A stretch of DNA of 64,000 nucleotides from Chondrosia reniformis (lineage: Eukaryota; Porifera; Demospongiae; Chondrillida; Chondrillidae): the NCBI GenBank assembly GCA_947172415.1, contig OX359192.1:5024501-5088500 (forward strand), written 5' to 3'. The notes under the pieces were generated by a model. It searched no databases. It had not been told where the DNA came from and worked only from the letters and a program-made list of their open reading frames with translations. How positions within the stretch are numbered: position 1 is the stretch's first letter; every line of letters begins with the position of its first letter. Shown piece after piece: positions 1 through 40,369 of the stretch. The position numbers and the translations under genes are program-made.

Positions 1-3000
1 ACCTTGAGGCATTCCACTCCACATTATATACAATAGCCCCAGTACTGGGTTGGCCAACCGGCAGACAGGATGCAGAGACTGTACTGCCAACCCTTACTGT
101 TGCCATTCCACCTATAAAGAGCTCCACATTACCAATGCTACTCCTTTGTCGATCGTAATAAAGCCTGTCATCCCTTATCACAGCAAACACTAAGAAATCT
201 ATAAAAATAGCAACATAAAAAGGTCACAATTCATGCACAACATGTAGAGCTTGCCTATTACAACTAAAACATTACTTAATACACCTCACACGTACATTCA
301 AGGCAATGTTAAATATAAAAAGCTAACCATAATAAGGCTAAGCATTGTGTATTAAAATAATAATTATAATACAAAACTATATTCATTAGGAATTCATAAA
401 TACACAGAACAGACAATGCTGTAAGAAAATACCAAATATCATGCAGCAGTTACAACTACGTATATCATTTTAAGAGATTCCCCTAAAATGGTAAATTCAC
501 AAGCTATTTTTAGAAGATGTGAGTGATGCCTAATACTGTCTGTCCATTGGTACTCCATATATGCAGATGATACATAATGTATGTATGTATGTATGCTGTT
601 TAGACATACCATCATCACTCTCAACAGTGACATAAACTGAATACATCGCCTCTTCATTCACATCAGAGCAATTGTATCTAGTTGCATTGAATTCTGATAC
701 AGTCAGAAAGGCGTCAGTATGCTATGAATAGAGGATATACGTATCACAATGGAAGCTCATCAATTGAGATACCCATAATGCTAAGAATTTCATGATGTAA
801 TAGCCCAACATGGTGATATAAAGATTACCATGCTCATATACGTATTCCGTTGCTGGGGCAACCGCCTGTGTTAAACCTTTGTAACCGTGACATATCAGGA
901 TTTAAGAAGCTATATACTGCATCGGCTTCTTAAATCCTGTTATATCCCTGCCCAAATATGATAAACTAAGACGTTTCTTCTTGGGGAGTGGACAATTCTC
1001 CTTACATTTAGGACAGTTGGAATAGTCAGGGCAAGGGCATTCTATGAAGTCGTCAGCGTTAAAGCAAAACAACCAGCGCTAGCAGAGCCATCCTGAAAGT
1101 CCCGCCAAAATAACGATAAAAAGTGACGGAGTATATATCACTCATACCACGGCGCTGAGGTGTATATGGATTTTATACGTATAAAATCCATATACACCTC
1201 AGTGCCATGGTATAACTAATACATGTTTACTGACAGTGTCTGGCAAAAAAACATAACAAAAATGACCAAAAGAGTCACATTTGTTGGCACCTTTAACTTT
1301 TCACTTTTTATGCCATGGGAACATTAACAATAACAAGTAAAATAAAACAATAATGATGTTAGAAGTAGGAATGGCAGTGTTCACCAGTGATTAGTACATT
1401 TTGCAAGCTTTGTGCGCCCAAACACAGAAGTGTATGGTTCTGTTACTTACATTTCAGTATACATATATGCAACTTCTGTATGATTAGCCCTATCACATAA
1501 TCACTGTACTGTTTCGTTACTCTTTGCAAATGTACTAATCACTGGTAAACACTGCCATTCCTACTTCTAACATCATTTTTGTAAATGTTTTTTTTTTTTA
1601 CTTGAGAAAAAGCCAAAAACCTTGATCCTTTTATAAAAATGGCAGCCAAGAAGACCACATTATGGAATCATAACAACTGTCTATATTTGCACAATTCTAA
1701 TAACGAGAACATCTGATAATAAGAATTAATTTTGTGGGACCCATAAAGTTTGTTTTAATGCGTTTCAACTGGATGTATGCAAGTTTAGCTTTCGAAAATC
1801 ATTGTAAGATTAGCCAATATTGCTGGTATGAAGGAAGGCTATTTAAGGGTATTGAGGCCAAATGTCCATTAGACAGGTCTACTAAATACTTATTTTGTTC
1901 TAAGAGGTGTTGTTAATTCTTGTTGGAATGAAAACATGATATGCCCCCCCCCAGACTTTTGGGAAGTTAATATACAGCTTAATAATAACTGCTTTGACAC
2001 CCTCATATTATTGCCCCCTCTTCATTTCCTCCTAAGTTCTGCATGCAGCCCTGGTGTTAATACCACAGTCTCATAACACAAAGCCCAAAATCTTTTAAAA
2101 ACTGGCATACTGTTACAAGTTTGCAGAAAACAATTCCGAAATACTACATAACTTTGGTACATGCAATGCTCCTTTGTTATTTGTTCTTTATATAATATAC
2201 GTCTTAACTATTACATGTACAGTATATACAAAATACAAACTTACATTCATCATGGGATTATCATTTATATACCACTGCACTTTCTCTCCTAGTTCACAGT
2301 GTAAGGTAATATTTTGAAGCTGAGGTAGAGTTACAACTCTTTCACTGTTCATTTCCATGGAAACTGTGTATTACAAAGGACAAAAAACATCTAAGCATAT
2401 GTACGTATGTACATACGTATATTCGTGAGGTGGATCAATAATATGAGGTGATTTGGCTAGCATTTCACCAAAAGTTTGAAACATATTGCTTAACATCAGA
2501 GGGGTTGTATGCAACGTTGAACTTGTAGAAAACTGGATGGCTGGGTCATCATATGTTCATACTATCATCAATCACTGATACATGAATAATCGAATTGATA
2601 ATCAGGCCACAAGTAATTATAATCATTCCTAAACCTCATGAAGAGGGAAAACATGAAGGACAAAATTGCTGGGAATCAAATCCAGTGCAGCTGGTTATGA
2701 CCACCAGTGCTCTGCCACTGAGCTACAATTGCCCCAGCAATGCTCCCTTAATATTTCCCCTCTTATAAGGAAGTACGTAATTGGTCTTCATTTACTATAA
2801 TTTGTGGTGATTCTCTTCATCAGAACAAGCTGATAATCAAGACCCGGCCCATATCATTGATATATGTACGTATAACACAATATAAAAAGGCTGGTGTAGG
2901 TATTGTACATGTATAAAGATGTATTGTAAAGGTTTCAAACATAAATCTTTAGGCCTTTAGCATTGCCAAGGTCATTGGGTGGAGTATAGCGGGAACAGCT

Positions 3001-3394
3001 GGTACTTGACAGTTACAATTAACTCTGCGGACTACACCTTAGGAATATGAAAATGACAAACAAATATTAACATCCAACGCGGTGGAATCCTTGAAGGCTA
3101 ACGACCAAAGATAAAGATTAGGCAGACAGAAACAGGGTACTACTACAGTAGTTTAACGTGGACAATGTTAAGACAGTATCATTGTTAGGCTACTCTAACG
3201 GATGCCCGTTAGGTTAAACGTAATTAAATGTATAGTTATGCATCTAATCATTTTAATAGACAGTTCATGATAGTCGTTGTTAGCAATGTAAACGTACCCA
3301 CAAGTGTACTCGTGTCTTGTGCTGATAGAATAGGGAACTTGGCGCCCAAGAACACTAACACACAAATATGAAGTCCGTAGCTCTGCCACGACAT
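1..3394 (-). CDS. Ig-A: immunoglobulin-superfamily surface or secreted protein, 3' end cut by window edge
   Basis: Exons on the minus strand: 3394-3298, 2363-2245, 721-610 and 198-1 (continuing off the window, or ending at a GT that reads at 2-1). Intron phases are 1, 0 and 1 and every junction is GT-AG. Exon 1 starts MSWQSYGLHICVLVFLG, a typical signal peptide. Exons 2 and 3 make one Ig domain, with Cys in TLHCEL, Trp in VQWY and the partner Cys in RYNCSD. Exon 4 starts a second Ig domain (SASC, VEWN). Several N-x-S/T sites suggest glycosylation. The 1.5 kb intron between exons 2 and 3 holds two palindromes and a poly-C element. The exon plan and phases match the four other Ig genes here, though the sequence is the most divergent. 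The anchor is unknown because the 3' end is missing. I am sure of the Ig nature and fairly sure of the exon joins; the ligand is unknown. Confidence 0.72.
891..953. repeat. short hairpin palindrome in an Ig-A intron
   Basis: A ~20 bp arm containing ATCAGGATTTAAGAAGC returns as its reverse complement GCTTCTTAAATCCTG after a ~20 bp loop. No coding potential was seen; it is probably a relic of a small fold-back element. Confidence 0.6.
1145..1213. repeat. near-perfect 69 bp palindrome
   Basis: Two ~34 bp arms meet at a central TATACGTATA. Reading outwards, ATACCACGGCGCTGAGG pairs with CCTCAGTGCCATGGTAT with only a couple of mismatches. It would form a loopless cruciform or hairpin. It lies in the Ig-A intron between exons 2 and 3. 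Confidence 0.85.
1352..1577. mobile_element. fold-back MITE, family F, copy 1
   Basis: The ends are inverted copies: GATGTTAGAAGTAGGAATGG at the left and CCATTCCTACTTCTAACATC at the right. The arms continue through a TTCACCAGTGATTAGTACAT-like stretch. The middle carries GTGCGCCCAAACACAGAAGTG, which also occurs in the copies at 8385-8720 and 8842-9078 and in a stub near 51.84 kb. No transposase frame is present, so it is non-autonomous. The mobilising family is not recognised. Confidence 0.75.
1930..2054. mobile_element. poly-C element, truncated copy
   Basis: It begins with a C-run followed by CAGACTTTT and ends in GCATGCAGCCCTGG. A fuller copy with both ends is at 11579-11744, so this one has lost its left end. 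It lies in the same Ig-A intron. Confidence 0.6.
2575..2853 (-). mobile_element. tRNA-derived SINE, copy A
   Basis: On the minus strand, GTAGCTCAGTGG at about 2726-2715 fits the pol III A box (TRGYNNANNNG). GATTTGATTCC at about 2682-2672 is a weak B box. The flanks TCATCAGAACAAGCTGATAA and AAGAGGGAAAACATGAAGG recur in the copy at 9540-9872. It lies between exons 1 and 2 of Ig-A. It is an insertion rather than a working tRNA gene. Confidence 0.7.
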
Positions 3395-3642: not shown

Positions 3643-6375
3643 CTAATTTCTCAAGCAGGGTGGAAAGGTTGGAGGAGTTGGCATGACTGTAGTTCCTTCA
3701 TTAATCATCCCTGAATGTGAGAGGCAAAGGGAAAGGCTATTACATGTGTACACTTTGTTGACTAGGAAAGATACATTATAATGACACCAAATGGCTATGC
3801 AAGGGATAAAAGGGTTTCTGATGAGGGTGGAATTCCAGTGGAATTGTCTGGTCCAGAGAAGAAAAGAGAAACATCTGACTCTATTGGCATCCAAAGCTCT
3901 ATAGGCTGTGATCCTAAGTTGTGTTTTTATGACATTTATTCATACGTATATGTATTCGTTCATATTTCATGCCAGTCATGGGTCCAGAAAAGTGAACTTC
4001 AGATTACATGGCTGGTTAGAAGTAAGTGTTTCCTCATGCTGTAACACTGTAAAATATGTACAGTACTGAAAAGTAGTGAAAGTAAGGTCACTTTACATAC
4101 ATTTGAATGCCACAAGAGTGAATAATACCAAGATGTACATACATTAGAATACAGTATAGTGCAAATTATTAGACATGCTGGTTTGTTACAAAATTTGGTC
4201 AATTATTAGGACTTTTAACACACATCTTTGAACGATTCGCTTCAAATAATCAATACAATGTTTTACCCTTCTCGGGCTTCATCAGGTATACAAAAATTAG
4301 CTAACACTGGACTTAAATACCATCAAATTCCAAAGAGAAATGGAAGAGAAACACTCACTAGCCTTCCTGGATGTCCTTATAAAGAGAGATGGAGGAAAAC
4401 TGACAACAACGGTCTACAGCAAGAAGACACACATGGACATGTATATCAATTACAGCTCCCACCACCATCCCAACACCAAGTCAGGAGTCATCAGCTGTCT
4501 GAGGGTGAGAACACAACGTGTGTGTGATACAGACCAACTGGAACAGGAAATGCAACACCAGGAAGAAGCCTTCAAAAGGAATGGATACCCAGAGAGAATA
4601 ATTAGGAGAGCTCTGTATCCAAAGAAAAGACCAGCACCACACGTGACTCAACACCACCACACACACCAAAGAGCAGTACAGAAGAGGGACAAGAACAATG
4701 CCAACACTGTCCACACAGAGCTAATGGGACACACTATCAATTGGAAGGGTGCACACAATCTGGAGAGGGAACCAATGTTGAAGCTCAGGAAGATCAAGGA
4801 AAGCCTGCACATGCAACACCTACAACCTGGACCAAGGAGTCGCTATCCATCCAACATGGGACTCCTTATTTGGCATTACTTAAGATGGTTGTTTTTCAAT
4901 TATTTCTTACTCAACAACCAATAACCACCCCACACGGTATTTAAGTCCAGTGTCAGCTAATGTTTGTATGCCTGATGAAGCCCGAGAAGGGTGAAACGTT
5001 GTATAGATTATTTGAAGTGAATCATTCAAAGATGCATGTTAAAAGTACTAATAATTGACCAAAATTTATAATAAGAATACAGCCTGGGAATTTTATAACA
5101 AGTTGATTATCTTGTGCACATTTTCAATTGGAGATTTAAGATATCAACAACAATTACTGAAATTGAATAGTTTAACTTGACTGAATTCTATTTATAACAG
5201 TGTGACAGTGTTGCAACTTACCCTCAAATGTGAATGTATCTGAGTCACTCTTCAAATTATTATCATATACAACACGACAGGTGTACTCCTCTGAAGTCTG
5301 AATGCTATTAACTAGTGCTATATAGTGTGCAGTTAACATGCTATTGGAATTCTCAACACGTTGTCCAATTTGTTCTCCGGCAGGATTAAGATATTCCACA
5401 ATATATGGGACATCCAGACATGAATCTACACGGCAAGCAACAGTAACACTAGCTCCAGCAGGCTGACCTGTTATATTCTTAACAGAACTTCCAACATTAT
5501 TTATTTCCACAGCTTGGGAGCCTAATAATGAAAAGGAAAATTGTAAGTGATACGTGTATTTAAAGCACATAGTAACATAAACACACCAGGAATAGCAGCA
5601 ATTCTGAAAGTAGCCGCTTTCACGGTTAGGGGGGTTTGCAGGACAGCAGTGCATCCATATGTGCCCACTTCGGTCTCATTGAGAGACGTGAAAGTCAAAG
5701 TAGCTTCCCAGGTACGATTGCCAAAGTTCTCTGTCTGCAAAGACCAGAATGAGAAAGAGAAACACAAAATGGACAGTCACACAATATGGGAGGAGTTCTA
5801 GCACTGCATTTATTAAACAGTATCTAGAGTCAGCATTGGGAGAATATAAAGAGAATACTGACTCCATATAACCTAACCCAACAGTACAGACACACGCGTT
5901 CATCTCAAACCTACGTACAGTAGTATGTCTGGTAGTTGAATTTGAGAGTATATTCCCATTTGTTTGTCTCCAGGTCAGTTCGTCAACATTAGAGGCTCTA
6001 CATCTGACACTGTATTCACAGCCAAACCTCGCATCTAGTATATCCGCTGGCTGTGCTAGAAAGTTGATTGATTGACTTTCTATTGAGGTAAAATTGAATG
6101 AAATTCAGAATAAATGTACGTTTGCTTAGGTTCTATACAATTTCTGAATATAAAATCAAGACAGTACGTGTTACATGCCGAAATCCACAGAAAGATCTAT
6201 AACTAAAATTCATCCACTTTGAGGAATGTAAAAGTTCCAAATAAATCATGATACGTAGGCGTGCCACAGACGAACCGATCGCGTATGCAGTTTAAACTAA
6301 AAGGTCTCGCGTATGAGGTATCGATAACTCACTGACACCGACAAGAAAAATAAGACAGAGTGCCACAGATGTCAT
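3643..6375 (-). CDS. Ig-B: two-domain immunoglobulin-superfamily protein, predicted secreted
   Basis: Exons on the minus strand: 6375-6333, 6079-5919, 5734-5587, 5521-5222 and 3710-3643. Phases are 1, 0, 1 and 1, giving about 239 residues. Exon 1 encodes MTSVALCLIFLVGV, a signal peptide. Exons 2 and 3 form Ig domain 1 (FGCEYSVRC, ELTWR, GTYGC). Exon 4 is Ig domain 2 (VTVACRVDSC and EEYTC). The last exon is short and Thr/Pro-rich and ends PPTFPPCLRN with no hydrophobic segment, unlike the paralogues, so a secreted product is predicted. The last exon rests only on a good acceptor, matching phase and the family's Thr/Pro-rich stem style; another anchor exon could be used instead. The 1.5 kb last intron holds a Penelope-derived insertion (4190-5067). 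Ig-A starts only 248 bp past the stop on the same strand. Confidence 0.72.
3780..3905 (+). mobile_element. decayed copy of the hammerhead-bearing short repeat (family H)
   Basis: It contains CTGATGA at 3818-3824 followed by GGGTGGAATTCC and GTCTGGTCC, the same order as the intact copies at 37.8 and 43.8 kb. The GAAAC core box is lost (GTGGAATTGTC instead). It lies in the last intron of Ig-B, so any short frames here are not genes. Confidence 0.6.
4190..5067 (+). mobile_element. Penelope-like retroelement remnant inside 131 bp inverted repeats
   Basis: The internal frame from 4340 reads LAFLDVLIKRDGGKLTTTVY, then SHHHPNTKSGVISCLR, a conserved C-terminal stretch of Penelope-like reverse transcriptase. 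The catalytic palm and GIY-YIG endonuclease are absent. Long inverted arms flank it (4190-4321 and 4937-5067), about 90 percent alike by eye. The right arm carries CTGATGA at 4972-4978 and GAAAC at 4993-4997, a hammerhead-like core of the kind known in terminal repeats of Penelope elements. It sits in the last intron of Ig-B. The start-to-stop frames inside it are relics and not host genes. Confidence 0.75.
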
Positions 6376-6500
6376 GGCCCCTCTCTCTTCACCTAATTCA
6401 GAAGGCCCAGCCCTTTCTTAAGAGACCGCTTCCGGCCACCTGCGGGCGGATGTTGTGAGTTCATACATTTAAACTCGCTGCTTCCGGTAAGAACACTAAG

Positions 6501-10443: not shown

Positions 10444-13400
10444 TCAATGCAAAATAATTACCATGATGATGGTAATTAATAATAAGCTGGCTGATATGTG
10501 TAAGGAAATGGCATCACATTTTGACGGAGGCAATGTAGGATTCGTAGGAGGAGTTCCAGTTGAGGTGTTGTTAATTGTACCTACATAAACAAAGAAACAA
10601 CAAACCTAGTTTTCATGCCATATAACAGGGACTCTAGACTGGGCAGTTACTAATGTTTAGAGAGGCTTCATAAATATATTTAAAATATTCTTAAGATCTA
10701 AACAGCTATATATTTAATATAACTGTTACTGTATTGGTACATACATACAACACAAAAAATATATTGTAATCTTAATACACCATTCAATGTACATATAGCC
10801 AATACATTTGTGTTTATTGTTTAAAAGGGAACATTTTAAATTACCAACCAATTTTCAATAACAAAATTAATAGAGCTTATACATATATATACCTAGTTGC
10901 ATTGTTAACAATTCTTGATCCCTGAAGTATCCTCAAAATTATAAAGAACAATAGGAAAGCTCAGTTAACTTCCCAAACGTCACCATTTGCAAATGAGTAT
11001 AAAGTATAATGACTGCATATGAACGTGTATTACATATCACCAAATATATATACCCCATTGCCCCAGCAACGATGTGAAAATGGGGACATTACTTACCGTA
11101 TACAGAGTGAATTGCTGATTAATAGGATATATAACGTGAACTATGTAGTTAATACAGTAAAGTGAAGTACGTAAATCTTACACATTCGTTTTCTTAGTTG
11201 CCAGTGCTTCTATAGTCCATGAATCTAATTTCATGAAATCCTTTACCATTTAACCATTTCAATCCCAGGCGCTGCTCGAATGCCATGGAAATGGGGTATA
11301 TATCAGTTATAGCCTATCACCTCTGATTTCCACCAAAACATAATTACTCTGCCTCATATTATATGTAATGAACTGTATACATGTATTGCATAGGCCCAGT
11401 GGAACAGAAGAAGGAAGAGAAAAGAAGACAGAAAGGAAAAGACTGCTGTATCATTATTCATAGCTCCCTCCAGGTTTAGTTTCCTATAGGCTTTTTACAG
11501 AATAGGCATAGCATGTGGGAAAATGGTGTATTAGATTTTTCATAGGATGGTTAATGAATAACACTTATTGTATGGTAACCAGGACTGCAGAGGGGGGGGG
11601 GGCAGGGAAACATTCACCCCCCCCCCCCTAGGATTGATTCCCCCCCAGACTTTTAGGAACCCCCAAACTGCTTTGACACCCCCTCATACCATTGCACCCC
11701 TAAATTTTGAAAATTTTCCTTTTGCCCCCCTGCATGCAGCCCTGGTAATCATAACATCATGGCTTCTTTTAGAGAGTGTAAGCCTTAAAGTATTGTACGT
11801 AAGTGACAGTTACTATAAACAGGTGGTTCATTTGTGTTAGCAGCATCGAAAATTGTGAGTCAGCTTGGGTCTTCAGAGGCACTCATAGAGGGTAGTTGGT
11901 ATTACATTTGGGGCCCGTCCAGGGATGAATCAGAGGCGATATGTCTAGAGCAGAAAGTCTAACCCTGGAATTAGACCAAGTTAGAACTAAACTATACTGG
12001 ATGGAGAGTATTATCTGAAAGTTGCGGGAGGGAAATCCTGAGTGTGCTAGACAGCTAGACGTTCAGGTGGAGAATCGTCATTTGAAGGAATTCTATGAGC
12101 AAGTGATTAAGGACCTGCAAGAGAAGGACACATTGGTGCTGAAGGGAAACAGCAACTAATTGAGCATGACAAAAGGTTGTCTGAGAAGAATCAGCAAATT
12201 GCTAGGAACAAAGAGGAGCTACGTGAAGGCAGCAAGGTCGTTCAAGATGCTAAGGATGAATACCATAGCTTGTGCCAGGAGAATTCCCGACTTGAGAAGG
12301 AGTTGATGGTTGCACCAGAAAGAGAAGAGCTTCACCTGCATTGAAAGCTGGAAAATGAACAAGCTACGTATATTGGAAAGAAGGAAAGAGAACTTGCTAC
12401 AGCAGGTGATGAGGAGACTGTTGAGATAGGATGATCAAGCCACTTGAGACCAAAGGTCTGGGGATGAGGACATCTCCCGTTCCGGATGGGGAGATGTAAT
12501 GAACTGTATACGTGTATTGCATAGGCTGATTAATTGATACTATTTATACGTGTATAAGTGCATGGTAACCATAATGTGATGGCTTATTTAAAGTGTGTAA
12601 GCCTTTAAGTTTTGTAAGTGAAAGATATTATAAACAGGTGGTTTATTTGTGTTAGTGGCAAGTAAAATTGCGAGTCAGCGTGTGTTTTCAGAGGCACTCA
12701 TAGAGTATAGTTGACGTTACATATATTTTGACTATACGTACGTAGTCCCCTTACCTCTGGGCTAGGGGACTATTATACGTATATATATGTACATACAGGA
12801 GACGAGCCTAAAAACCAAAAGTTAGAATGAAACAATATAGAGCCCAAATACAGCCCCTAAAAAGTTAAACTATTGTTACTGAATAATATTAGAAATAAAA
12901 TTCATAACAATTAAGGGATAGCCTATAGACTTCTACACTATATATAAATACGTATATCAGACACAGAATATGCTACCTTCAAATGTGAATGTTGCTGAGG
13001 CAAAAAGTTGAGGCTGACCCTCCAATCTAGCAAGACAAGTGAATGTTCCTGTATTGTCAACTTCCAGTGTCCTGACATAGTTGGAAATTGTCATTGACTC
13101 GCTGCTATTTACACTAGAAAGTACTTCATCATTGGGCCCAAGAAACTCAATAGCGTAAAGGTCATCACGACATGACTCTATGTTACATGCAACAGTCACA
13201 GGGTCCCCAACATTCTTTCCAGTTATATCTTTTGCAGAATCACCAACAATGCTTACTACTAAAGGTCCTGAGTCTTGAAAGGATAAATGCATACAGTTAC
13301 ATATGTACATATACAACTGTATACTTGTACATCTACAACTATGTATGTATGTATATACGTAAGTGCCAACAGTGCAGCCTACATACGTACATACCTGGGT

Positions 13401-16121
13401 TAGCTCCAATTATAAAAGTATCAGTCACTATGGTTTGCGGGGCTTTGAAGGCAAGGCATTGATATGATCCTATATGCTCTGTCCCAAGAGGTGTAAATGC
13501 TAAAGTAGCTTTCATGGTACCATTGACAAAGTTCTCTGTCTACAAAGACCATGATACTAGAGCTAATGGCATATACCACATATACGTATAAGTACATCTA
13601 CATACATATATGTATATATAGGAGATGGAAAGACAAAACACACTTCAACAGTACCCCATCTTACCCAACCACTCAGATTTACCAAGTGGTGGCCATCCTA
13701 TATGGACCAAGTATAAAGCAAACACTAAAGTTTGGCCCACATATGAATTAGAACTCTTCTGTCCAATGGAAGTGGAGAGTAATGTGTTCCATATCAACGT
13801 TATATGAATTGACTGGTGAATAACATATTTAGTTATGAGACTTTTTAAATAATCACTTTGCAAAGCACTATAGTACCATGTACTAGTGTACATAAGCTAA
13901 ACTTAGACTAGCTAGGTGGATGGTATATAATGCGTCATGCTAAACTTACACTGGCCCTTCTGATGCCTGAGTTTATAAATGCATTTCCACTGCCCAGTCT
14001 CCATTTTAATTCATCAGCCCCTGAAGTTGTACAACTCACTGCATAGTCACATCCTTTTCTTGCATTTAAAATATCTGTTGGTCGTTGTGTGAATATAATC
14101 TGGGCATCTGCAAAACCTATAGTAAGAACAACAGAATATTAATGCCATTCTGCAAAGTTTAAGGTGAACTAGAACTTCCTTGTTTGAAAATTATACCAGA
14201 TATGGTTCTTGAACACTCACTGGGAATGAAAACATTAACAGGTCAAAATTACATTACTTGGAAGCATGTACAAAATCCTCACTCAATCAAACCATAGTTA
14301 GAACTGCTTCCATTTAGAATTGTTTATCTCTGTAGGCACATTAGTCACAATATTATAATGTATACCATATCAGAAAATATGGTAAGTAGGGTTGGCTGAA
14401 AAAAACATGGTCGCCCTATTCAATGTATTCTCAATTAATACCTAATAAATCAAGGATTTAATTTTTGGTTATACGTATGTATGCTGTTCTAAATGCCAAA
14501 ACGTGTTTTGATATTCTACAACGTCAGCAAAGTGGTTAACCAGCTATTGGCCCAATTCCAAAATTATTTCCTCCTTTCCTTCGAATGAACTAGTGCTCAC
14601 ATGCAAACTTATGCTGGCAGATAAAACCTCTATATTATCATCATTAATTTTTCCAAACTAGGGAATAGGCTAACCTAATGTGCTCTACATGAAGAAAACT
14701 TTCAACACAAATTCAAACAAGCAATGTAATTCCAAAATTCTCACTATGTTTAGTTCCCATTAAGCCTTTTACTAAAGACTAGATGTAGTATCTAGGAAAT
14801 GTGTCATCCATTGCTATCCCTTAATACATACACAGGGACAATTCTGATTATGACCTATCTTCCATCGCATGTAATAGGTGTGTCAAAGTTTTGAAAGAAA
14901 TAATACTGCAATGCATACACACTGTAATTGTGATACTATTGTGATACATTGTTATCATAATACAACCCCCCTCGAATATCTTTCAGATCTGTTCTGGATA
15001 TAGTCTATTGGTAGGGCCATTTTGTGGCTAAATCTCAACAATTACAATTGGCACAGCTGCCATTGGTGAAATAGTTTATACTAGCTTGGATGACCCATAC
15101 ACTGTTCAAGGCCTCATGCCCTGGACATTACTGTATATCCCATGCATCAATACACTTCAGCATCCCAAAAGAAACATTATACGTATGCATACCATATTCT
15201 ATATTTAGGAATATTAATTGATACGTCTCATTGAAATACATTACATTGCAAGTCATCATTATAGTACACGTAAGCCAGTTTGTCACATTTGGCCTGATTG
15301 AGAAGTTGTTATAGAGGTGGGTGTCCTTTCAGCCATTTTGTAATTAAAATAGTATCTGTTAACTAAGTCACTTCCTTAGTTGGGCATACCCATCAAATGA
15401 ATGTCTCCTTTACTCTCTCTCTTGGGATATATGACAACTCAACTGTACAAAATGGTATCATAACATGCAATCCACTTAGTGTATAAACATATTCACGATA
15501 TGGACAGATTCTGTGATATAGTACGTACGTAGTATACATGGGTTACTCTATATTCGGCCTAAGGATGAGGCACTCGTCCAGGTAAGTATATAAGAGATTA
15601 ATCTACAGTTGTACGTGTAGAAGAAATAGGATCACAGCCGTTGCGTACTTACTCCGCTATTCGTTCCTGTCATAACCTAACTCACAGACACTCTAACTAC
15701 AAGTAACTGTAAGTATATTATAACCACAGAAATAGACGTTATGTTGTCGTGTAAACACTAGCTGTAAGTACTATGGAACCTGCACGAACAGACATCTCTC
15801 AAGGACGGACGTTTGCTGAATCGTTCGCTTTCAAACCATTTCTAAAATTCACGTAACGATGTTTCCTATAAGTTTACGTTTAAACTATGGCAATTTAGCC
15901 AGAAACATTAGGTTCCCATAAATAATTTAGTTAGTTTCCATGATAAACAAAACATACAAAACTAATTCTCTACTAAGACGGGCCCAACAACACCAAAGGA
16001 GCAGTACGATATCACTTGATCACTTGAAGGGTATGGACAAGTATTTATACGATACCTTGATAAACTTACCAACATTGAGGATAAAGGCTAAGTAAACTGC
16101 CAATAAGAGTACAACGTTCAT
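10444..16121 (-). CDS. Ig-C: two-domain immunoglobulin-superfamily protein, predicted GPI-anchored
   Basis: Exons on the minus strand: 16121-16070, 14116-13950, 13539-13395, 13273-12977 and 10580-10444. Phases are 1, 0, 1 and 1, giving 265 residues. Exon 1 is a signal peptide (MNVVLLLAVYLAFILNV). Ig domain 1 has KGCDYAVSC, ELKWRLGSG and GSYQC. Ig domain 2 has VTVACNIESC and GTFTC. The last exon is a Thr/Pro stem (STGTPPTNPTLPP), then a hydrophobic tail ISASLLLITIIMVIILH running straight to the stop with no basic cytoplasmic residues, the usual form of a GPI-attachment signal. The omega site cannot be fixed by eye. The last intron holds a decayed LTR retrotransposon (11364-12721). It is a close paralogue of Ig-E and divergent with Ig-D. 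Confidence 0.82.
11396..11550 (+). mobile_element. 3' part of family H repeat nested in the LTR
   Basis: It contains GTTTAGTTTCCTATAGGC, AGAATAGGCATAGCATG and GGGAAAATGGTGTATTAGA, the shared 3' block of the repeats at 37.8 and 43.8 kb. It lacks the hammerhead block. Confidence 0.65.
11579..11744. mobile_element. poly-G/poly-C MITE-like element nested in the LTR
   Basis: Terminal inverted repeats CCAGGACTGCAG and CTGCATGCAGCCCTGG enclose a G-run at the left and several C-runs. It splits LTR sequence that is continuous in the 3' LTR (GGTAACC to TAATCATAAC), which proves insertion. A truncated copy is at 1930-2054. Confidence 0.75.
14385..14735. repeat. dispersed repeat family G, copy 2
   Basis: It matches 7674-8365 in order, starting GTAGGGTTGGCTGAAAAA and including AACTAGGGAATAGGCTAA and GAAGAAAACTTTCAA. 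It has an internal deletion relative to copy 1. It lies in intron 1 of Ig-C. The rest of this intron (14736-16069) is AT-rich with no feature I can support. Confidence 0.6.
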
Positions 16122-16380: not shown

Positions 16381-18115
16381 ATGTCGAAACTTCAGAAAAC
16401 TGTTTTTGCAATTTTTACAATTGCCGCAATGGCTCTTTCTGGTAAGTTGAGGTACTTATTCGATAAAATGATTAACTGATTGTCAGTTTTGTGTTGTATT
16501 CATGTATTCAGTGTATGTCTACCTACGTAATGATTGTTTATATTTGTAGAAACTCGGTCCTTTAGCGCAATTCCCTACAAGACGGACATTGCAGATGCAA
16601 TTTATGGTTGCAGATACTTGTTCCGTGCCACGATTATAGGAGCGACCGAGTACGGCTGGTACAACCCCTTCGGCAATCCGATAAATGGGCAAGATGTAAC
16701 AGCCAATCATATCTTTACCGAGGTGAGCTCGAATAATGGAGTAATAACATATTTTAAAAATATATAATTATTGAAGAAATAATTTCATGCATTCAACATC
16801 AGCTTTATAATTTCCGACTGACGAAGGTTTTTGTTGTCAGAGAGTGTTCAGAGTCGTTCATTATTACCGAATATTTAGCTTTCGTAAATCCCATGAGTGT
16901 ATATATTTATTTTGCGATCATTCTACTACTCCTCGCTAGGAGACTGTTATTAACGCTACCACTGTGATTACAGAGCTCATCATAGACCAAGCTACAGAGG
17001 ATGCCACCTATAGCTTGTTTGCAAATGATGAGAACACGAATGTAGAAGAAATGTTCAAGCTCTCATTGTTACCAGGTACGAAGAGTACATATAATTGGTA
17101 CTTTATCTGCATGTGTGTATTATATTGGATACAGTGTATATATTGTACAGTATTATGTATGTGGGCCAAGTATCTCTTGTACATATTCCACATGGAGCAA
17201 CTAAAGCAATAATAATCTATAAATCGGTTTTAAGATGTGATATCTTGACAACCATCCAACCTGAAAAGTGCAATGGATCATGGATAATTGTTTTCCATGT
17301 ATTTATAATAGAGCTATTGTAACCAAGCAAAAGTGTAATGCTTGTTCTGTTTGCTCAAATATTTATTTTCAACTGCATGATGTATGTATTTGATACTGGA
17401 AATATAATCCTTTGATGTTATGAATGGCTGTTACAGCTATGGCTTCGTTGCATTTTGACTAGAGTAGCTGTGTAAAGTAATTAGATTATCAGAAAAGCTG
17501 CATTGACAGATTTCATTTTCTACTTAGATTCAATGCCTATATCAGTGATCTTTGGAATTGAACTGAAGGAAAGCGTTATGGAACAAAACATCTCCATGTC
17601 TAGCTATTCGGTTGGCGATCAAGTTCCATTGACCTGTTTAATAACTAGCTGCAGGTCATGGAATGGCACAGTAGAACTAGTTGATTCCAGTGGAAGTGTA
17701 ATTCAGTTCAAGACAGTAAATCTCTTAGAGGGTTCGTTATCAATCTCCTTCAAAGTGCTAGTTGGAGGATCTGAGGAGTACCCTGTAGAATATTCATGTA
17801 GAGTGAAGACTTCCCTACGAGGAGAAACCTTTTCAGCTCTCTCCAATGTAACACTTTCTGGTAGGTTACATGCTATTAAGATTAAGCACTTCATGTGATG
17901 TATTGCTGCATATATTTGCAAGACGTATATCAAGTTGTATTCATTTGCTTCCTTTAAATTTCCCAGGAACCCCAGCTAGTGCCACTACTCCTAGTGTCAC
18001 TCCAAGACCTACCTCTCCAACTCCATTGCCTCCCTTTTCTGGAAGCATAAGTTGGAGATGCAGCTTACTTGTCATGGCAACATTTCTGATTGCTACCGTA
18101 CTTTGTCATTTTTAA
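16381..18115 (+). CDS. Ig-D: two-domain immunoglobulin-superfamily protein, predicted GPI-anchored
   Basis: Exons: 16381-16441, 16550-16722, 16940-17075, 17528-17860 and 17967-18115. Phases are 1, 0, 1 and 1, giving 283 residues. Exon 1 is a signal peptide (MSKLQKTVFAIFTIAAMALS). Exons 2 and 3 form the first domain (YGCRYLFRA); it is diverged and lacks an obvious second Cys of the Ig disulfide. Exon 4 is an Ig domain (VPLTCLITSC and VEYSCRV). The last exon is a Thr/Ser/Pro stem (TPSVTPRPTSPTPLPPF) and a hydrophobic tail LLVMATFLIATVLCHF ending at the stop, matching a GPI signal. N-glycosylation sites are present. It reads away from Ig-C. Its 3' end converges on RSL24D1. Confidence 0.82.
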
Positions 18116-30844: not shown

Positions 30845-33800
30845 ATGGCCGAAAGGAAGTGTTTTAATATCTGTATCTTATTTCTCGTTCTTCTCATTCA
30901 CGCAGTAGGAATACTGCTCTTTTGTAAAGGATATTTATTGAAGCGGATAGAACTGCACCAATACAGCGACTGTAGTAAGCCCAGTTTATCGACCTTGAAT
31001 CACGTTTTAGCAAAATCTACAGGTGAATCCTGCAACGGCGCGCCGAGGAGGTTCAAGAAGGCAGTGTGGCTACTTATTGACGCACTAAGATATGACTTTA
31101 TGGTCTACGATGACCGCTTAGATCCTAACCCACCACTTTACCGCAACAAGATGCCTTTTGTCCGCGACCTTCTACTGGAACGTCCGCAAAATGCCAAACT
31201 ATTTCGCATATACGCAGATCCGCCTACCACAACAATGCAGAGATTAAAGGCACTAACGACCGGGAGCCTTCCCACTTTTATCGATGTCAGTAGTAATTTC
31301 AACAGCTATACTATCCTGGAAGACAGCCTGCCAAACCAGCTGCGGAGAAGGAACCTCAATACTACCCTCTTGGGTGACGATACCTGGCTGAGCCTGTACT
31401 CACACCTGCTAACAAAGGTATACGACTACCCCTCCTTCAATGTGAAGGATCTTCACACAGTAGATGATGGAGTCATGCATCACCTCCTGCCAGAGCTAGC
31501 AGCCGACGATGCAGATCTGCTGGTTGGTCATTTCCTGGGAGTGGATCACTGCGGTCACATATTTGGGCCCAGTCACCCCAACATGGCCTCCAAGTTAACA
31601 CAGATGAATGAAATGTTAAAGTATGTATGCAATTTAGGGAAAATAATTTGTATGAGTCCATTCATTTATCCAATTGGCTTGCTTTGTGTTAGTTGATATA
31701 CCACCCGTCCTAGTTTATTCTGCTAAAGTCACTTAATATCAGAGAGTGTGATAGTCCACTCTTGCAGAGATGACCACCCTATTTAATGTACCACCCACCA
31801 CTCAATTACAGCACTGGAGGTAGAGTGTAATTGGATGTCCATTAGATGGAGAATTAAAATGAAAGCACGTACTCATGTACTGGCATAGGTTGATTGGGCT
31901 GTCAGAATCTAGCATATGTATTAAGACTAGATGGGTACACAAGATTGTCTTTCATACGAATGCTTAAGATTCTGTCTGAAGCTTGCAGAAATACTAGTAC
32001 CGCATTCATACTCTTAAGAATGTGGAATTTACATATGACTGGCTAGTAGTAGTGTCCCATGCCTCCCTGTACTATTACTACTATATAGATTCTGTAAGAT
32101 GTGTAAATAGTAATAGTAGTGCATTATTTATAAGTTTTATTGTTTATTTGCTATATTACCTATGCATTTTCCATTTAATAACCACCATATATATACCTTT
32201 TAAACTCTTTTAGGCTTCTGATTATTTTCCACATTTTAAGCAGTATTACTGTTGTATTGATGCTGTCTGGGGAGTGTGGCCTGGTAGCACGGGTGGGGCC
32301 CACTCCCCGTCAGCTATGCTGTGCACCTTGGTGAACCTGGTAGCCTTGCAAGTGGCAATGGCTTATACGTGCAGCCCTGTGCCCCGTAACCATAACTGGT
32401 TGGCATCTTTCATTTTGCTTTTTGTATGCCTTTGGCACATTAATAATATAAAATAATATATTGAAAAATTACATTGAAAAAGGAGGAAGCATGGCTGATG
32501 TGCATTACTGTAGCAAATGCTAAATTATCTAAAGCACAATATCTTAACCTAGTTACCATATGAATTAGGGTACCCACATACTATATAACACACATAGAGG
32601 TATAGTATGTAGAGCTTTGTATGAGGACAAGTTCTTGTTTTCATTTTTTGTCTACTGGGACCAAGCAGCTCTTTCTGGGAATGCCACCATTCTCATTAGA
32701 CTGGGAAATGTTGTCTGGTCCTTGAAACTTCTTGGCTCTGTTTTTATTATTTGAAATATGATCTCACTCCACATTTGTTTACCTAGAAAATTAATGTACA
32801 TGTAATTATGTGCTATTAAAACAGAGCTGCCTAAGTGTATACTGTTAACCTGAAGTTTGTTGAAAGCTTCAGCTATATGTTCTGTACCTCTCTATATATA
32901 CTAGAGATGTAATTCCAGAGATAGATGAAGATACAATCTTATTTGTGTTTGGTGACCATGGTATGACTCCCACTGGAGATCATGGCGGAGACAGTGAAAA
33001 TGAGACTAGTGCTGCTCTGCTCATATACTCCTCAAGATCTATATTCTGTGGGCAAGAAATTTCTCAGCGAGCTGTATCTCAGATTGACATAGTGCCAACT
33101 GTGTCCCTATTGCTTGATATTCCCATTCCATATTCCAGTCTTGGAGTGGTAATCCCTGAGTTATACTTAAAGTGCCCGGACCTTAGTGCTTGCATTCACC
33201 AGACTCTAGGTGATGTAAAAGATGAGTTCCAACAATGTAGACAGATTTACAAAGGTAGAGTAGATGAAGAATTTCTTTTTGTTTTGAATAGAAATGCCAG
33301 ACAAATCAAGAATTACCTAGATGCATATTCAGACCACTCTAATGACTTTCCCACTACACAGAGGTTACACCTACAAAAGCTGCTTGATAAAGCTGAATTG
33401 ATGCATTCCAGCATACTGGTGAGAAGAGAAAAAGACAAATATTTCTCTGAACAACCTCTTGATGTTGACTTAAGAGAGGATATGGAAGAATGTGCAGATT
33501 TGTATTACAACTTCATGTATAATGTAAGAGATCTCTGCAGGCAGCTTTGGGCTAAATATGATGATACTTCTATATTCATGGGTATTGTAGTAGAAATCTT
33601 AGCAACACTGGTAACATTACTGCTGGCATTCAACAGCCGTGAGGACAGAACGCTGCCTCTAGTGAAATTTCACTTTCTTCTTCCTTCTATCTTTATGGGA
33701 GGCATTCTTAGCTTCCTTTGTATCTGGTATTTGGGATTGGGAGAGCCTTCAAGCTTAACTTGGAGTCTGACTGAAATTATCAACTGGGTTGCTGAATTGC

Positions 33801-35831
33801 TGTTCATAGCTGTCAATACTGTGTCTATATACATTACTTTCTGTCTGATGAAACCCACATATGCAAAATTATGTAGTACTCTTACCTCTTTGGGACCATG
33901 CTCCTCGAAAAAGTGCCCCTATTCCTATGTGCTTGCTGTGTTTGCATTGGTTGTGATGGTGTCTTACAGTGTAACCTTTTTATCCAATAGCTTTGTTCTC
34001 TATGAGTTCTCAGTGGCTCTTTATCTGAATCAGGTCCTCTTAGTTGTATTCTTTCTATACTACAGACATCTCTGTGTGACCCATGCTAGCAATAGCAGGA
34101 ACAAAAGAGTGTCACAAGTAAATTTTTTTCTCATTTTGGTTTTCATGATTTTGATAATTGCAAGACTTTCTAAGTTATTTAGGGTTTGTCGGGACTTGCA
34201 GGTTGACTGCAAGTTGACCCATTTTACTCTCTCCCTCCCAGCAGCCATGGAGATGATTGGTTTCTTTGGAAAGTGTGTTAGGTTCCTTAGTTCTTCTCTT
34301 TGTGTTCTGTGTGTACCATTCTGTTCAATTTGGTGGGTCTGGAAGAATTCACTGGTAAATTTGATGTCATCTTTCCAAAAGACCTTCCTCTTTTTAATTC
34401 ATCCTTTTGTTTCTGGATTAGTAGTAGTGCATTGGTCATTACAGAGCTATGAAACCTATGCCAGTGTTAGGTTGTCTCATTTTCAGCATGTAGCAGCAGC
34501 TAGATTAGTATATTGGTTATCACTGGTTTGTATTGCTTGGAACATTTTAGCAATTTTGAGAATAAGAGGGAATAATCATAGCAATAGGCTGGCGGCTGGA
34601 GATGATGTTAACAAAACTTCAATTATTTTTGTTTCCTGGCTCCTGGTTGTGTTGGCAGTATGGCAGATGCTAGCTATGATACTTAATGATGCCTTGGCTT
34701 TAGGAGGATTTCTGATGCTCGCTCACATAGCCTTGTATACAATCCTGACGGCTCTTGTCTGGAAAATGGAAGAAGGTACACATTTATATATGTAAGCGTA
34801 TTAAGTGCACTCTCTCCAGTTTTAGTTTCCTAGAGGCTTTTTAATTATTACTGAGTAGGCATAGCATGTAGGAAGATGTTATTCATGGTCCTAATAGCCT
34901 GGTTCCTATATTGCACAGATTTATTGATTTAATTTATAGATGTAGGATTGGATCCATCTGTATGGTTCACTGCTGTTTGCTGGGTAGTTATGACAACAAT
35001 GTACTTTCATGGAACAGGCCACGAACCAACTGTACCAAGCATTCGCTTTGAGGCAGCTTTCGTTGGCATGCATGGAGAAGTAGAAAGTTTTATAATTGCA
35101 GGATTATTAGTGGGTTTTAATACTCTAGGATCTCAAGTGAGTTATTAATGTGACTACTTATATATATGTACAGTATAACATATACTGGGATCCAATTTCT
35201 GATATTTTCATTTTTATGTATGACTACATGTATGTATACTAAATGTCTGTAGGTCTTTCATGCCCTTTCCATCCCTCTATTGGTGCTCTGGTCACATAGT
35301 CCTGGAAAAACATCAGAGAATGTTACTCGGAGGAGACTCATGAAGTTTACTTTACAATTAGCATCTTGTTATTCACTAAAGGTTAGAATTGGTATCAAAG
35401 TATACATACTTCTAGATTAATTCCATATTTTGCTTCTCACATGCAACATAAGAATGTCATGTATATTTTGAGTGGTTACTTTTAGCCAAATGTACGTAGA
35501 GACACTATTAGACAATTTCTCATTGTGTTTGTCTAGATAATAAACCTGCAATTCAGTTACGAAATATGGCTTTTAGGATGATCATTAAAAGGGACCTATA
35601 GGCTATATAGACAGACAATTATTCTGATATATGTAATTACCAAAGCTTTCTTTGCTTGACAATCGCTTCCTGTATACATGCATTTCATAGGTCTTTTTCA
35701 GTCTGGTGGCAGCTTCAATACACAGAAGACATCTGATGGTGTGGACAGTCTTTGCTCCACGATTCCTTTTTGAAGCTGTATTTTTTGGATTATCTCAAAC
35801 TTTTGTTCTAGTTGTTTATAGCATCACATAA
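30845..35831 (+). CDS. PIGO: PIGO, GPI ethanolamine phosphate transferase 3
   Basis: Exons: 30845-31620, 32905-34775, 34940-35136, 35253-35381 and 35691-35831, all GT-AG and frame-consistent. They give about 1037 residues against about 1090 in vertebrates. It adds ethanolamine phosphate to the third mannose of the GPI precursor in the ER membrane, the bridge later joined to protein. An N-terminal membrane segment precedes the lumenal phosphodiesterase domain: [10 protein letters not shown] with the nucleophile region, [27 protein letters not shown], and [14 protein letters not shown] with metal ligands. The C-terminal half is a chain of membrane helices, and exon 3 holds [20 protein letters not shown]. 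The gene looks intact. It lies beside Ig genes with GPI-type tails, probably coincidentally. Confidence 0.96.
31621..32904. other. PIGO: PIGO intron 1
   Basis: AT-rich, with a GC-richer island at about 32265-32390 (GGTGGGGCCCACTCCCC) that differs in composition and may be a small insertion. No coding exon is required or seen, since exons 1 and 2 join in frame across it. Confidence 0.5.
34812..34890 (+). mobile_element. 3' fragment of family H repeat in PIGO intron 2
   Basis: CCAGTTTTAGTTTCCTAGAG and GAGTAGGCATAGCATGTAGG match the 3' block of the 43.8 kb copy. The hammerhead part is absent. Confidence 0.55.
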
Positions 35832-36103: not shown

Positions 36104-39100
36104 TTAGACATAATAGTCATCTGTTTGGTTATCCTTTTCACCATATGGACCACTGGGTGCAGGTTTTGGGATGACATTGTATGCTGGGTTAATTTCCATC
36201 AAAATATCAGCATTCTATATCAGGCAAAAAGAATGAAAAAATGATTGCTGCAGAGGAAAATGCAGTGTATATATGTAAGGTTTAATTAATCATGATATAT
36301 AGAAATCATATATAGTATGCTGAAATCTGAATCTAGCAACAGTTCAATTAGCACTTCCTAAGTAACTATATAATAGGGCCTTAAATGAACATAACAATTT
36401 AGTCAGGAATGAAATTATAGAGTCTGACATCACTTTTAATATTCATAGTATCAAGCACATCAATTGGTTATCCCAGCACAATAATATAAAGCCAATAATA
36501 CGGATGTACGTACGTGTATAAGACTTTGAACAAAAAGCAGAGAAGATGGGTTGCAAACTCCCAAATTTCTCAAGTCTTTTGGTTCAAGTTCGAAATCTTT
36601 CTCAGCTTTTATAGGGGACATTTAATGAAACTTAAGCAATAGTGAGTATATATATATACTTAAATACGGCCTCAACCAATTGCAAGGCATGTATATAGAA
36701 TAGGTGTCATTTGTTGGTGTTGGGCATGCTTGTGTATAGAATTTTAGGTAATATGTCAGGAATTAGTAGGATGCAAGTTTTTAAATCCTGCTAAAGCTGT
36801 TGGTAAATTGATATGTTAACTGATGCACATTACTTCCTACTCAAACCATATTTTGTGTATACCATGCATTCCTGATATGTGCATATATAGATTACACTCA
36901 TTATTGTAACAAAAAACTTACATAATGCTACATGTAACTTAACACAATGTTACATATAACTTACATAATTACATACGTAATAATTAGCATTTGTACATTA
37001 CAACTGTTGATAGATATAGAGTATTTATCTTTTTTTCGCCATGTTAACTACTGTGTTTGTGTATATTATGTGTACAGGCTACCCCCTGCAAAGGGGATAA
37101 AGCCCATGGGTGATTGATTGATTGATTGAAAAACTTACATAAGTGGATTTAGGGCGTTCTGGCTGTCGAAGTACCCCACTCTGAGTTTGAGTACTTCAAC
37201 AGCTGTACTTCAAACTTTTGGTACTAGCAAACATATCACCAAACCATATCTCATACCTTTCTATATTACATAACTATAGCTAAGCATGGTCCCTTACAAA
37301 TTCCTATCCCAAATGACATTGTTATCAATGCTATATAGAAGCATTACTGGGCCGACCTCAATATATATATATATATATATGCTTCAGAGGCAGAGCTACG
37401 TATATATATATATATAATTTACACTAAATGTACAAGAATCTATGCAGCTTTATTACATTAGAAGTAAAAAACTAACTTGTGCAATATTTCATTGCAAGGG
37501 TAATCTATAGGTGGCAGATATTGTATATATATATAGGCATTCAAGAAGAAAGACATACTGTGTATATATATTGTATAATAGCTTATTGGGTAGAAACAAG
37601 AAACGTCAAGATCTACTGAATAGTAATTAAGTAAAGAAGAGTTGTGTCACTACTGAAACTAAACTTTCATTCATGCAATTATTAGCAATTCATCTGAGGT
37701 GATGCTTTGCTCCTAAGTATATACATCTCACCTTCCACATATGCATACATTGGATATATATATAGCAAGACACACATATAGGATATAGGATTCATAAAAA
37801 ACCAAAAAGACAAAGATTCCCAGGGTCACTGATGAAGGGTTGAATTCCCAGAAACAGTGCTGTCTGGCCCAGTGAAGCAGAAAAAGAAAAAGGAGACTCC
37901 TGTATCTTCATCCAAAGATCTCTCCAGATTTTGTTCCCTATATAGGCTTTTTAAATATTACAGCGTATAGGCATATATATAGCATTTAGGAAAATGGTGC
38001 CGGTGCATTATATATAGATAATTATTCATATATACTTCCTGCTTGTATATGCACCCATGAATACAGACAAGTGGTGCATGTATTTGCTTATACACTATTA
38101 TTTATATCTGTAAGCTTTAGTTAAATGTAAATGGCAAACTACATGGCAATTCCCAGATTATATTAATTGTTTTTATGTACATAATTATAACCTAAAGGAC
38201 TAAATCCACTGTTTATAATCACCATCTCAATAGAAGATACAGAGGAATAGGATTGAAGCAATGTACAAGAGATTGATAACAACTAGTAAACCATGGGCAA
38301 TGGATATATAAGAGATTGATAACAACCAGAGAAGGTTTCAAGTAAACCATGGCTGGATTGAGTGAGATTATAGATTATGACTGGGATGCATTTGATGCTC
38401 ATATATGAATATATATACCATGTATACTACTAATTTATTTTTGTGAGCACTTACATCAAATTCTCTTTCTTCTTTAACATCTAAAATATGAATTCCAAAT
38501 GTAAGACCTAATCAATATTCTGTACTATACACTATAGTACTGTAACTTAAACTATTTTAACTGAAATGAGATATATATAAAAGAATCGAAAGAAGCCATG
38601 CATGTACATGATATACATGTATGTATAAATAGATAAAGTATTCTCTTAAACCCACGAGTGTATATATATGCGTATAACCATTATGTCTCAGAATTCAGAA
38701 ACTTATTTTTTGTAGCTTTTAAGGGGAATATTAAAAGAGTTTATAATACATCATTGTAATTACGTATATACTGGAATTTACTCACTCTGTTTATTTGCTC
38801 TTTGACTCTTTCTTTTCCTTTTTGTAACTACTAGACATAGGATAAGAAGGATGACCAGAGGAATTATTAGCACTGTAAGGAGCGGAAGTAACTGATAATT
38901 TACAGCACCATTTGGAACTGGTAAAAATGTAGAGTAGTTTCCATGTGTTGATGACCATGTGGATGTGGTTGGTACTTTGCTAATATCTCCTTGGATCACC
39001 AAACCTATGAATTAAGGACTATATGTATGTAAGTATGTATGCACATACATATATATAAGTTAGAGATTAATTCATATTCATTTCAGAACTTATGTAGGTA

Positions 39101-40369
39101 TAAAATCTACCCAATCTTAACACAGTTGTTTATCAGGGTCCAATATTCCACTTATTTACAGAAATATACAATTAACAAACAGTTCTTCATGAAAATATAC
39201 ACAATTGTAATTGAGAGATCACTAATTACTATATATATAATTCAAGGACTGTACAAAAAGTTATTATATACATATGAATTTGTTTCTCTTATATGTTATA
39301 TGTACCTTCAAATGTGAATATTGCTGAGGCCATAACTTGAGGTTCACTCTGCAATCTAACAAGACATCTGAAATTGCCTGTATTGTTAACTTCAAGTTTC
39401 CTGACATAGGTGACTGTTAGTGTAGCCTTGTTGCTACTAGCATTAGAAAGTACTTCATTATTGGGCCCAAGAAACTCAATGGTGTAAAGGTCATTGCGAC
39501 AAGATTCTATAATACAGGTGACAGTCACCAGCTCTCCTACATTCAATCCATTAATATTTATTGCAGAATCACCAACAAGACTTACTACTAAAGGCTTTAT
39601 AATTTCTGAGTCTATAAAAGAAGAACAAACATACGTATATATGTATACTCATAGATATGCATATAAACATATATACCTGAGGAAGCTGAAATTACAAAGG
39701 TTTCAGATAAAATATTTGAAGGTGCCTTGAAAGCTAAGCATTTATATATGCCTAGGTGCTCTGTCCCAAGAGGTGTAAATTCTAAAGTGGCTTTCATGGT
39801 ATCGTTAATACTGGTAAAGTTCTCTGTCTGCAAAAAACATGAGAGTTGAGCTATATATAATAATTATATTGCCCACATATACATATATATTCTTACTTAG
39901 AGAGTACTGCTGTACTCTCTGATAATATACATATTGGGATGGAAAGACTAGAATAATTCCAACAATGCCCCATATACCCAATTGGGCAGAGTGCAGCTGG
40001 CCTATATACAGATATTATAAAGGATATTAAACACTACATATAGATTTTGCCCTGAGCTAGAGACTGCAATTTATACTGTCATAATAACAGGCAGGGGTAA
40101 TATCCAGAGTTCATTGATGATGGATATCAATGCTTTAAGATCGGCTTTAGATCTTAAAGTTCCCCTAAACTTACACTAGCCCTTCTGATGTCCGAGTTCA
40201 TAAATGCATTTCCACTGCCCAGTCTCCATTTTAATTCATCAGCCCCCAAAGCTGTACAGCTGACCGTATAGTCACACCCTACCCTTGCATTTAAAATATC
40301 TGTTGGTCGTTCGATGAATATGATTTGGGCATCAGATACTTCTATAGGTAAAAGTAACAAAAATATCAT
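36104..40369 (-). CDS. Ig-E: immunoglobulin-superfamily transmembrane receptor with NPxY cytoplasmic tail
   Basis: Exons on the minus strand: 40341-40175, 39827-39677, 39611-39306, 39004-38786, 38480-38455 and 36214-36104. Ig domain 1 has VGCDYTVSC, ELKWRLGSG and GIYKC. Ig domain 2 has VTCIIESC and GNFRC. Exon 39004-38786 gives a Ser/Thr stem, the helix LLPLLTVLIIPLVILLILCL and a basic stop-transfer TKRKRKSQR. A 26 bp mini-exon and the last exon supply the tail, with NPAYNVIPKP and a C-terminal DDYYV. The first Ig exon is 167 bp, exactly as in Ig-C, so a separate signal-peptide exon probably lies upstream and was not found. The alternative is an in-frame start at 40369 (MIFLLLLPIEVSDAQ). Reading on from 38786 instead of splicing would stop at once and give a short-tail form. 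Confidence 0.8.
37075..37135 (+). mobile_element. short LINE 3' end with TGAT tail
   Basis: GGCTACCCCCTGCAAAGGGG is followed by (TGAT)n. A minus-strand relative lies at about 19068-19135. It sits in the last intron of Ig-E. Confidence 0.5.
37800..38010 (+). mobile_element. family H short repeat with hammerhead-ribozyme-like core, copy 2
   Basis: It shares its whole order with the 43.75-43.99 kb copy: CTGATGA/GAAAC block, AAGGAGACTCCTGTATCTTC, CTATATAGGC and CATTTAGGAAAATGGTGC. The unit is about 210 bp with no protein frame. It lies in the last intron of Ig-E. Confidence 0.75.
37823..37870 (+). ncRNA. candidate type I hammerhead ribozyme
   Basis: Core box CTGATGA is at 37829-37835 and GAAAC at 37851-37855, with cleavage triplet GTC at 37862-37864. 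Stem I: GGGTCA (37823-37828) pairs with TGGCCC (37865-37870) over six pairs, one G-T wobble. Stem II: GGG (37837-37839) with CCC (37847-37849). Stem III: A54-T63 and C55-G62 with a six-base loop. The pair next to the core in stem II is A-A instead of the usual G-C, so activity is uncertain. Confidence 0.65.

Follow-up and report, generated by a model that had tools for sequence, protein, structure and literature searches.

In the Hydractinia Alr complex, at least 41 loci have been recognized, Alr1 and Alr2 being highly polymorphic and the Alr proteins being of low mutual identity (PMC11067881). In the CEACAM family of vertebrates, immunoglobulin (Ig) ectodomains are found on transmembrane (TM) helices with a tail, on glycosylphosphatidylinositol (GPI) anchors or with secreted ends, and phase-1 borders are usual for Ig exons, as in zebrafish CEACAMz1 (PMC8274849). 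For sponges, a review ties Ig proteins, such as those of Geodia cydonium, to adhesion (PMC11999971). Here we describe a window of 64,000 nucleotides from chromosome 4 of the kidney sponge Chondrosia reniformis (odChoReni1.1, C4:5024501-5088500), in which five Ig-type genes, Ig-A to Ig-E (A to E for short), were modelled from reading frames and splice sites of the genomic DNA. Four of them, B to E, are a real small family of sponge Ig receptors, new as genes and ordinary in kind, which so far has been seen only in this species. We hold it to be rather probable that they encode cell-surface glycoproteins, likely acting in cell adhesion or recognition, that consist of a disulfide-locked pair of Ig domains joined to exchangeable anchors.

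The five genes have one exon plan, as an earlier note on this DNA had already described. GT-AG sites are present at every modelled junction, the exons modelled for A to E are all open, and the intron phases are 1 (signal/Ig1), 0 (inside Ig1), 1 (Ig1/Ig2) and 1 (after Ig2) in 5/5 models. By reading, Ig1 is interrupted by its intron between strands C' and E in all five genes. Signal-peptide exons were chosen by a scan within set stretches, which rendered two candidates for A and a single one for each of the other genes. Since phase-1 borders are general among Ig exons, the proposal of the same note that such borders could allow exon swapping applies widely to Ig genes, and the informative features, those above chance, are the common phase-0 intron and the sequence kinship of B to E. 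In tblastn comparisons, C and E are 83% identical in the first half of Ig1, 67% in the second half and 65% in Ig2, and the identity of B to C and E is 31-48%. Profiles built without D find, among 4,151 frames, the first half of D Ig1 at 1e-4 and D Ig2 at 6e-4, and miss the second half of its Ig1; none of the B-E family profiles finds A. Judged from these comparisons, B, C and E are clearly one family, D is a distant member of it, and A stands apart, so that what the earlier note took as one cluster of five comprises four related genes and one without detectable kinship to them. The limits it gave for the cluster, positions 1-40369, have to be widened as well, for Ig-E starts at 41164 and Ig-A runs past the left window edge to end ca. 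1.38 kb beyond it. A profile search of the window plus 40 kb to the left and 20 kb to the right detected no further exon of the B-E family.

Genome-wide searches covered the 117,379,552-base, 15-contig assembly, which represents one haplotype, the alternate one being GCA_947172445.1. With Ig-E, Ig-D, Ig-A and Ig-B as queries, matches at E≤0.01 were restricted to this locus and a single further place, C2:8756.7-8757.2 kb. Because D could escape a single query (E 2.18 with Ig-E), the search was repeated with a majority-type protein, which reached D Ig2 at 5.1e-5 and not D Ig1. The chromosome 2 place was again the only other match; the next one had an E value of only 1.57, and remoter members would escape this query. 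On chromosome 2, both Ig1 halves are ca. 70% identical to those of Ig-C, and the signal exon and the phases match by reading. The next exon after Ig1 in that gene (C2:8754898-8757202) encodes an unrelated Cys-containing module, which indicates that shuffling has carried one Ig1 unit from one gene family to another and makes a likely swap of the kind anticipated visible; this unit is also the only member found beyond the window. The family of the Cys-containing module has 41 matches at E≤1, its own two exons counted (34 on C2, 5 on C3 and 2 on C7), with clusters on C2 (7.66-8.07 and 8.73-8.76 Mb) and on C3 (2.15-2.31 Mb). Four stretches read near these modules hold exons like fibronectin-III or Ig, one Ig exon being confirmed by Pfam.

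Outside this genome, no homologue was found for Ig-C (E 0.01) or Ig-E (E 0.1) in a database assumed to consist mainly of intron-free gene calls, so that this absence means little. The Ig2 profile rendered four proteins from the protein database, three encoded by the window itself and the fourth a variant of Ig-B from the European Nucleotide Archive (ENA). In the same database, the Ig2 exons of the window occur on a contig of 9,027,519 bases (C4 has 8,954,400), perhaps another assembly version. No paper title concerning these genes was found, which does not prove that none is printed.

B to E differ in the exons that follow Ig2. Ig-D (16381-18115, plus strand) and Ig-C (16121-10444, minus strand) are complete models in divergent orientation, their ATGs being 259 bp apart. 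A GPI-type filter applied to 296 phase-1 terminal-exon candidates (124 kb, both strands) retained two, the C and D tails, the filter being a simple one that was written once these tails were already known. C and D have GPI-type ends by sequence, in agreement with the earlier note.

Ig-E spans 41164-38786 (minus strand) and probably continues to 36104. Its TM exon ends in phase 1 and the tail exon begins in phase 0, so that an intervening exon is needed, for which the 26-bp microexon at 38455-38480 was the sole candidate over the thresholds set. The joined tail weakly matches other loci, the best ones being on C9 (E 0.0036) and C7 (E 0.0040), where uninterrupted frames (C9:4987830-4988021 and C7:7484429-7484593) encode a TM helix and a basic stretch followed by NPCYGVL and NPAYGMI, respectively. 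The distance from the TM helix to NPxY is 29 residues in C9 and 30 in C7, and it is 29 in Ig-E with the microexon included. In two weaker tail-matching loci that were read (C5 and C11) no NPxY was seen. The C9, C7 and Ig-E tails perhaps represent a common receptor tail type of C. reniformis. By reading, and with the candidate joins, the modelled tail of Ig-E contains NPAYNVI and DDYYV; compared with the consensus of the immunoreceptor tyrosine-based inhibitory and activation motifs (ITIM and ITAM), it has neither a strict ITIM nor a paired ITAM. Of the TM form with a signalling tail previously ascribed to Ig-E, the helix is borne out, and a tail with NPxY is probable. A terminal exon of Ig-B could not be found, and other possible ends of GPI or TM type were weak candidates only; the secreted form ascribed to this gene is therefore not established.

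The second feature that characterizes B to E is a set of additional cysteines. The Ig2 motif (see table) is present in B to E and absent from A, with the spacing C-x3-S-C, four residues separating the cysteines, and not C-x4-SC as first given. The GC of Ig1 is conserved without exception in B to E and also in the chromosome 2 copy, and the SC of Ig2 is invariant in B to E. Inside the Ig domains there are six cysteines in B, C and E and four in D, in which Ala and Leu replace the two canonical Ig1 cysteines and both GC and SC are retained. An AlphaFold2 (AF2) model of C Ig2 (mean predicted local distance difference test, pLDDT, 91.6) has seven strands, with C27 in strand B and C77 in strand F, and places the SC just past strand B (strand 22-30, Cys 32). 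In tandem Ig domains the loop after strand B faces the preceding domain, and the start of strand B of Ig1, at which the GC is located, is the pole facing Ig2. The fact that D lost the Ig1 pair and yet kept both extra cysteines leads us to predict an inter-domain bond, in which the extra Ig1 cysteine (GC) would pair with the extra Ig2 cysteine (SC).

Regarding the fold, A, C and E pass the Pfam cut-off and the C Ig2 model resembles an Ig sandwich, whereas B remains below the cut-off (Ig_3 1.7e-5, 25.6 bits versus 30 required) and D matches no Ig family, so that D would be placed in the Ig superfamily through its kinship with B, C and E. The Pfam and homologue queries used an Ig-C draft with a slightly different Ig1/Ig2 join, and the Pfam query of Ig-E lacked the tail. 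ICAM-1 domain 2 (PDB 1ic1 and 5mza) ranks with the better matches of Ig2 to solved structures, both in sequence and in fold, although the identity in structural alignments is only 13-22%.

From these features a mode of action can be proposed. B to E have the order signal peptide, split Ig1, Ig2 and then an exchangeable anchor exon, and the two Ig domains, held as a stiff unit by the predicted GC-SC bond, would engage a partner, either in the matrix or on another cell. C and D, on lipid anchors, might cluster or compete without signalling, and Ig-E might pass the contact inward via its tail, the NPxY motif being one that is read by phosphotyrosine-binding (PTB) domain or endocytic adaptors. The common phase-1 borders would permit anchor swaps, for instance between C and E, which are close relatives, and may have permitted the move of Ig1 into another gene on chromosome 2. 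The nearest functional likeness is the CEACAM scheme, likened here by organization: TM (E) and GPI-like (C, D) ends are found on one type of Ig ectodomain, and the borders are of phase 1 (PMC8274849). Unlike in CEACAM, a phase-0 intron splits Ig1, each domain has an extra conserved cysteine, and the modelled tail of E bears NPxY and no clear ITIM or ITAM. Sponge Ig-type adhesion molecules, such as those of Geodia cydonium, are alike, by description only, as Ig-like surface proteins tied to adhesion (PMC11999971).

Several observations weigh against this interpretation. The gene models are predictions from genomic sequence; a public RNA-seq run, ERR10177766, exists. The microexon taken alone is at chance level (a mean of 1.4 per control segment, 58/96 segments holding at least one), and it was included in the query by which the C9 and C7 tails were detected, for which reason the match in spacing is supportive and not fully independent. 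Ig-B, with no terminal exon found, may be truncated. The C Ig2 model matches complement macroglobulin (MG) domains equally to Ig domains, with no Foldseek match at E≤0.001, and D Ig2 is of medium confidence (pLDDT 71.3), its best matches including non-Ig sandwiches. Moreover, the top PDB profile E-values add up several weak Ig domains of one chain, as in titin or ICAM-1.

Among the other explanations, the one that fares best, though we regard it as unlikely, is that of a family of paired receptors and decoys facing microbes, in which GPI-type members would bait bacteria and E would signal uptake, in a CEACAM-like manner. It could account for one ectodomain plan on a TM member with a tail and on GPI-type members, and NPxY tails are suited to uptake. 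C. reniformis is a bacteria-rich sponge, according to the genome paper (PMC12181767). Against it, the C and E ectodomains differ at 59/199 residues, nothing showing convergence on one ligand. A decaying cluster, with C or E as the sole working gene beside relics, is more doubtful still. The end of B could have been lost to insertion of the dispersed repeat that lies behind its Ig2, which as a query gave 115 matches in the genome, and the Ig1 disulfide of D has disappeared with its two canonical cysteines; but the modelled exons of A to E are open with GT-AG sites, and D retains both extra cysteines and a complete exon set.

The earlier note had likened the locus to the Hydractinia Alr complex. 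Sponges do recognize self, and no Ig receptor locus is known to control this process. In an Alr-like histocompatibility locus, ectodomains would be highly polymorphic, and allele matching between sponges would decide between fusion and rejection. What recalls Alr (PMC11067881) is the cluster of divergent Ig-superfamily genes with differing anchors, the single-pass TM member among them and the early-branching position of the animal. The ENA variant of B Ig2, a stray on a 613-bp contig, differs at 6/69 residues (8/71 if two residues beside an adapter-like end are included), and the genome looks very heterozygous, as inferred from the k-mer completeness of 69.43% (primary) versus 93.73% (combined) in the genome paper (PMC12181767). 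Against this, the large complex of related genes that characterizes Alr is replaced here by four related genes, GPI-type members among them, and one Ig1 unit, as found genome-wide within the reach of the queries used. Far larger Ig clusters exist elsewhere in the genome: 36/150 scored Ig_3 matches, counted by eye with 150 of 972 candidates scored, are at C6:8.12-8.20 Mb alone, and 0/150 are inside the window. Between C and E, dS is 0.44, which shows no sign of recent expansion, dN is 0.17 and omega is 0.39 overall (0.21 in the first half of Ig1, 0.34 in the second, and 0.55 in Ig2, with a bootstrap 95% range of 0.32-0.99 for Ig2). These values, which express paralogue divergence and not population data, indicate purifying selection, and diversifying selection between C and E was not seen. 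The stray variant could be an allele or come from another population or another species, and cryptic speciation in C. reniformis is named in the reference list of the genome paper (PMC12181767). There is thus no sign so far of allelic self-recognition, and we consider an Alr-like locus highly improbable. The least probable reading of all makes this locus part of a self-recognition complex of the sponge: within one disulfide-locked two-Ig family, GPI-held and signalling receptors would be paired, and alleles would differ strongly between individuals, a difference at which the stray B variant hints.

Ig-A appears as a neighbour with the exon plan of B to E and no detectable sequence kinship with them. 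It comprises three Ig domains and a TM helix, starting near 3394, and the whole protein is over the Pfam cut-off for V-set, Ig_3, Ig_2 and I-set; no relative was found elsewhere in the genome at E<0.1, and a search for tyrosine motifs beyond its last exon gave unconvincing short frames only. Between Ig-D and Ig-E, at 30845-34792, there is a gene for what we take to be a PIG-O-like GPI ethanolamine phosphate transferase, with sub-threshold phosphodiesterase and sulfatase matches only in Pfam; its vicinity to GPI-type members is probably a coincidence. Elsewhere, the window holds a single-exon, seven-helix-like frame (52313-53272), a G protein-coupled receptor by reading and without a Pfam match at E 0.01, a reverse transcriptase frame (60102-60953, RVT_1 1.7e-29), and, at 55-60 kb, two other mobile-element-like frames that had no Pfam match when tested.

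Table 1. Exons modelled for Ig-A to Ig-E, and the adjoining repeat, in window coordinates.
Feature	Position	Strand	Basis or remark
Ig-A candidate signal-peptide exon, ends phase 1	3298..3394	-	one of two candidates; alternative start exon 4101-4140
Ig-A Ig1 first half, ends phase 0	2245..2363	-	splice model
Ig-A Ig1 second half, ends phase 1	610..721	-	splice model
Ig-A Ig2, continuing left of window, then Ig3 and TM exon	1..198	-	splice model
Dispersed repeat, 139-nt inverted ends 90% alike, 147 nt 3' of Ig-B Ig2	4183..5074		genome search
Ig-B signal-peptide exon	6333..6375	-	single scan candidate
Ig-B Ig1 first half	5919..6079	-	splice model and kinship
Ig-B Ig1 second half	5587..5734	-	splice model and kinship
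Ig-B Ig2 (VACRVDSC), last exon found for this gene	5222..5521	-	splice model and kinship
Ig-C signal-peptide exon	16070..16121	-	single scan candidate
Ig-C Ig1 first half	13950..14116	-	splice model
Ig-C Ig1 second half	13395..13539	-	splice model
Ig-C Ig2 (VACNIESC)	12977..13267	-	splice model; AF2 pLDDT 91.6, Ig-like sandwich
Ig-C terminal exon, Thr/Pro/Asn stalk and GPI-type hydrophobic end	10444..10580	-	terminal-exon scan
Ig-D signal-peptide exon	16381..16441	+	single scan candidate
Ig-D Ig1 first half, with the extra GC and without the canonical B-strand Cys	16550..16722	+	splice model
Ig-D Ig1 second half, without the canonical F-strand Cys	16940..17075	+	splice model
Ig-D Ig2 (LTCLITSC)	17528..17860	+	splice model, kinship; AF2 pLDDT 71.3
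Ig-D terminal exon, Thr/Pro/Ser stalk and GPI-type hydrophobic end	17967..18115	+	terminal-exon scan
Ig-E signal-peptide exon	41110..41164	-	single scan candidate; outside the earlier note's coordinates
Ig-E Ig1 first half	40175..40341	-	splice model
Ig-E Ig1 second half	39677..39827	-	splice model
Ig-E Ig2 (VTCIIESC)	39306..39611	-	splice model
Ig-E stalk, TM helix and basic stop-transfer segment	38786..39004	-	splice model
Ig-E candidate 26-bp microexon, phase 1 to 0	38455..38480	-	chance level alone; tail spacing backs candidate
Ig-E probable tail exon, ILMEINPAYNVI (NPxY) and C-terminal DDYYV	36104..36214	-	tail matches elsewhere

The B-E family documents anchor exchange and domain shuffling via phase-1 introns in an early animal lineage, and it yields a concrete prediction, that of a disulfide between Ig domains. 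It is easily testable, being small, combining one ectodomain plan with anchors of GPI type and of NPxY-tail type, and belonging to an assembled genome for which an alternate haplotype and RNA reads exist.

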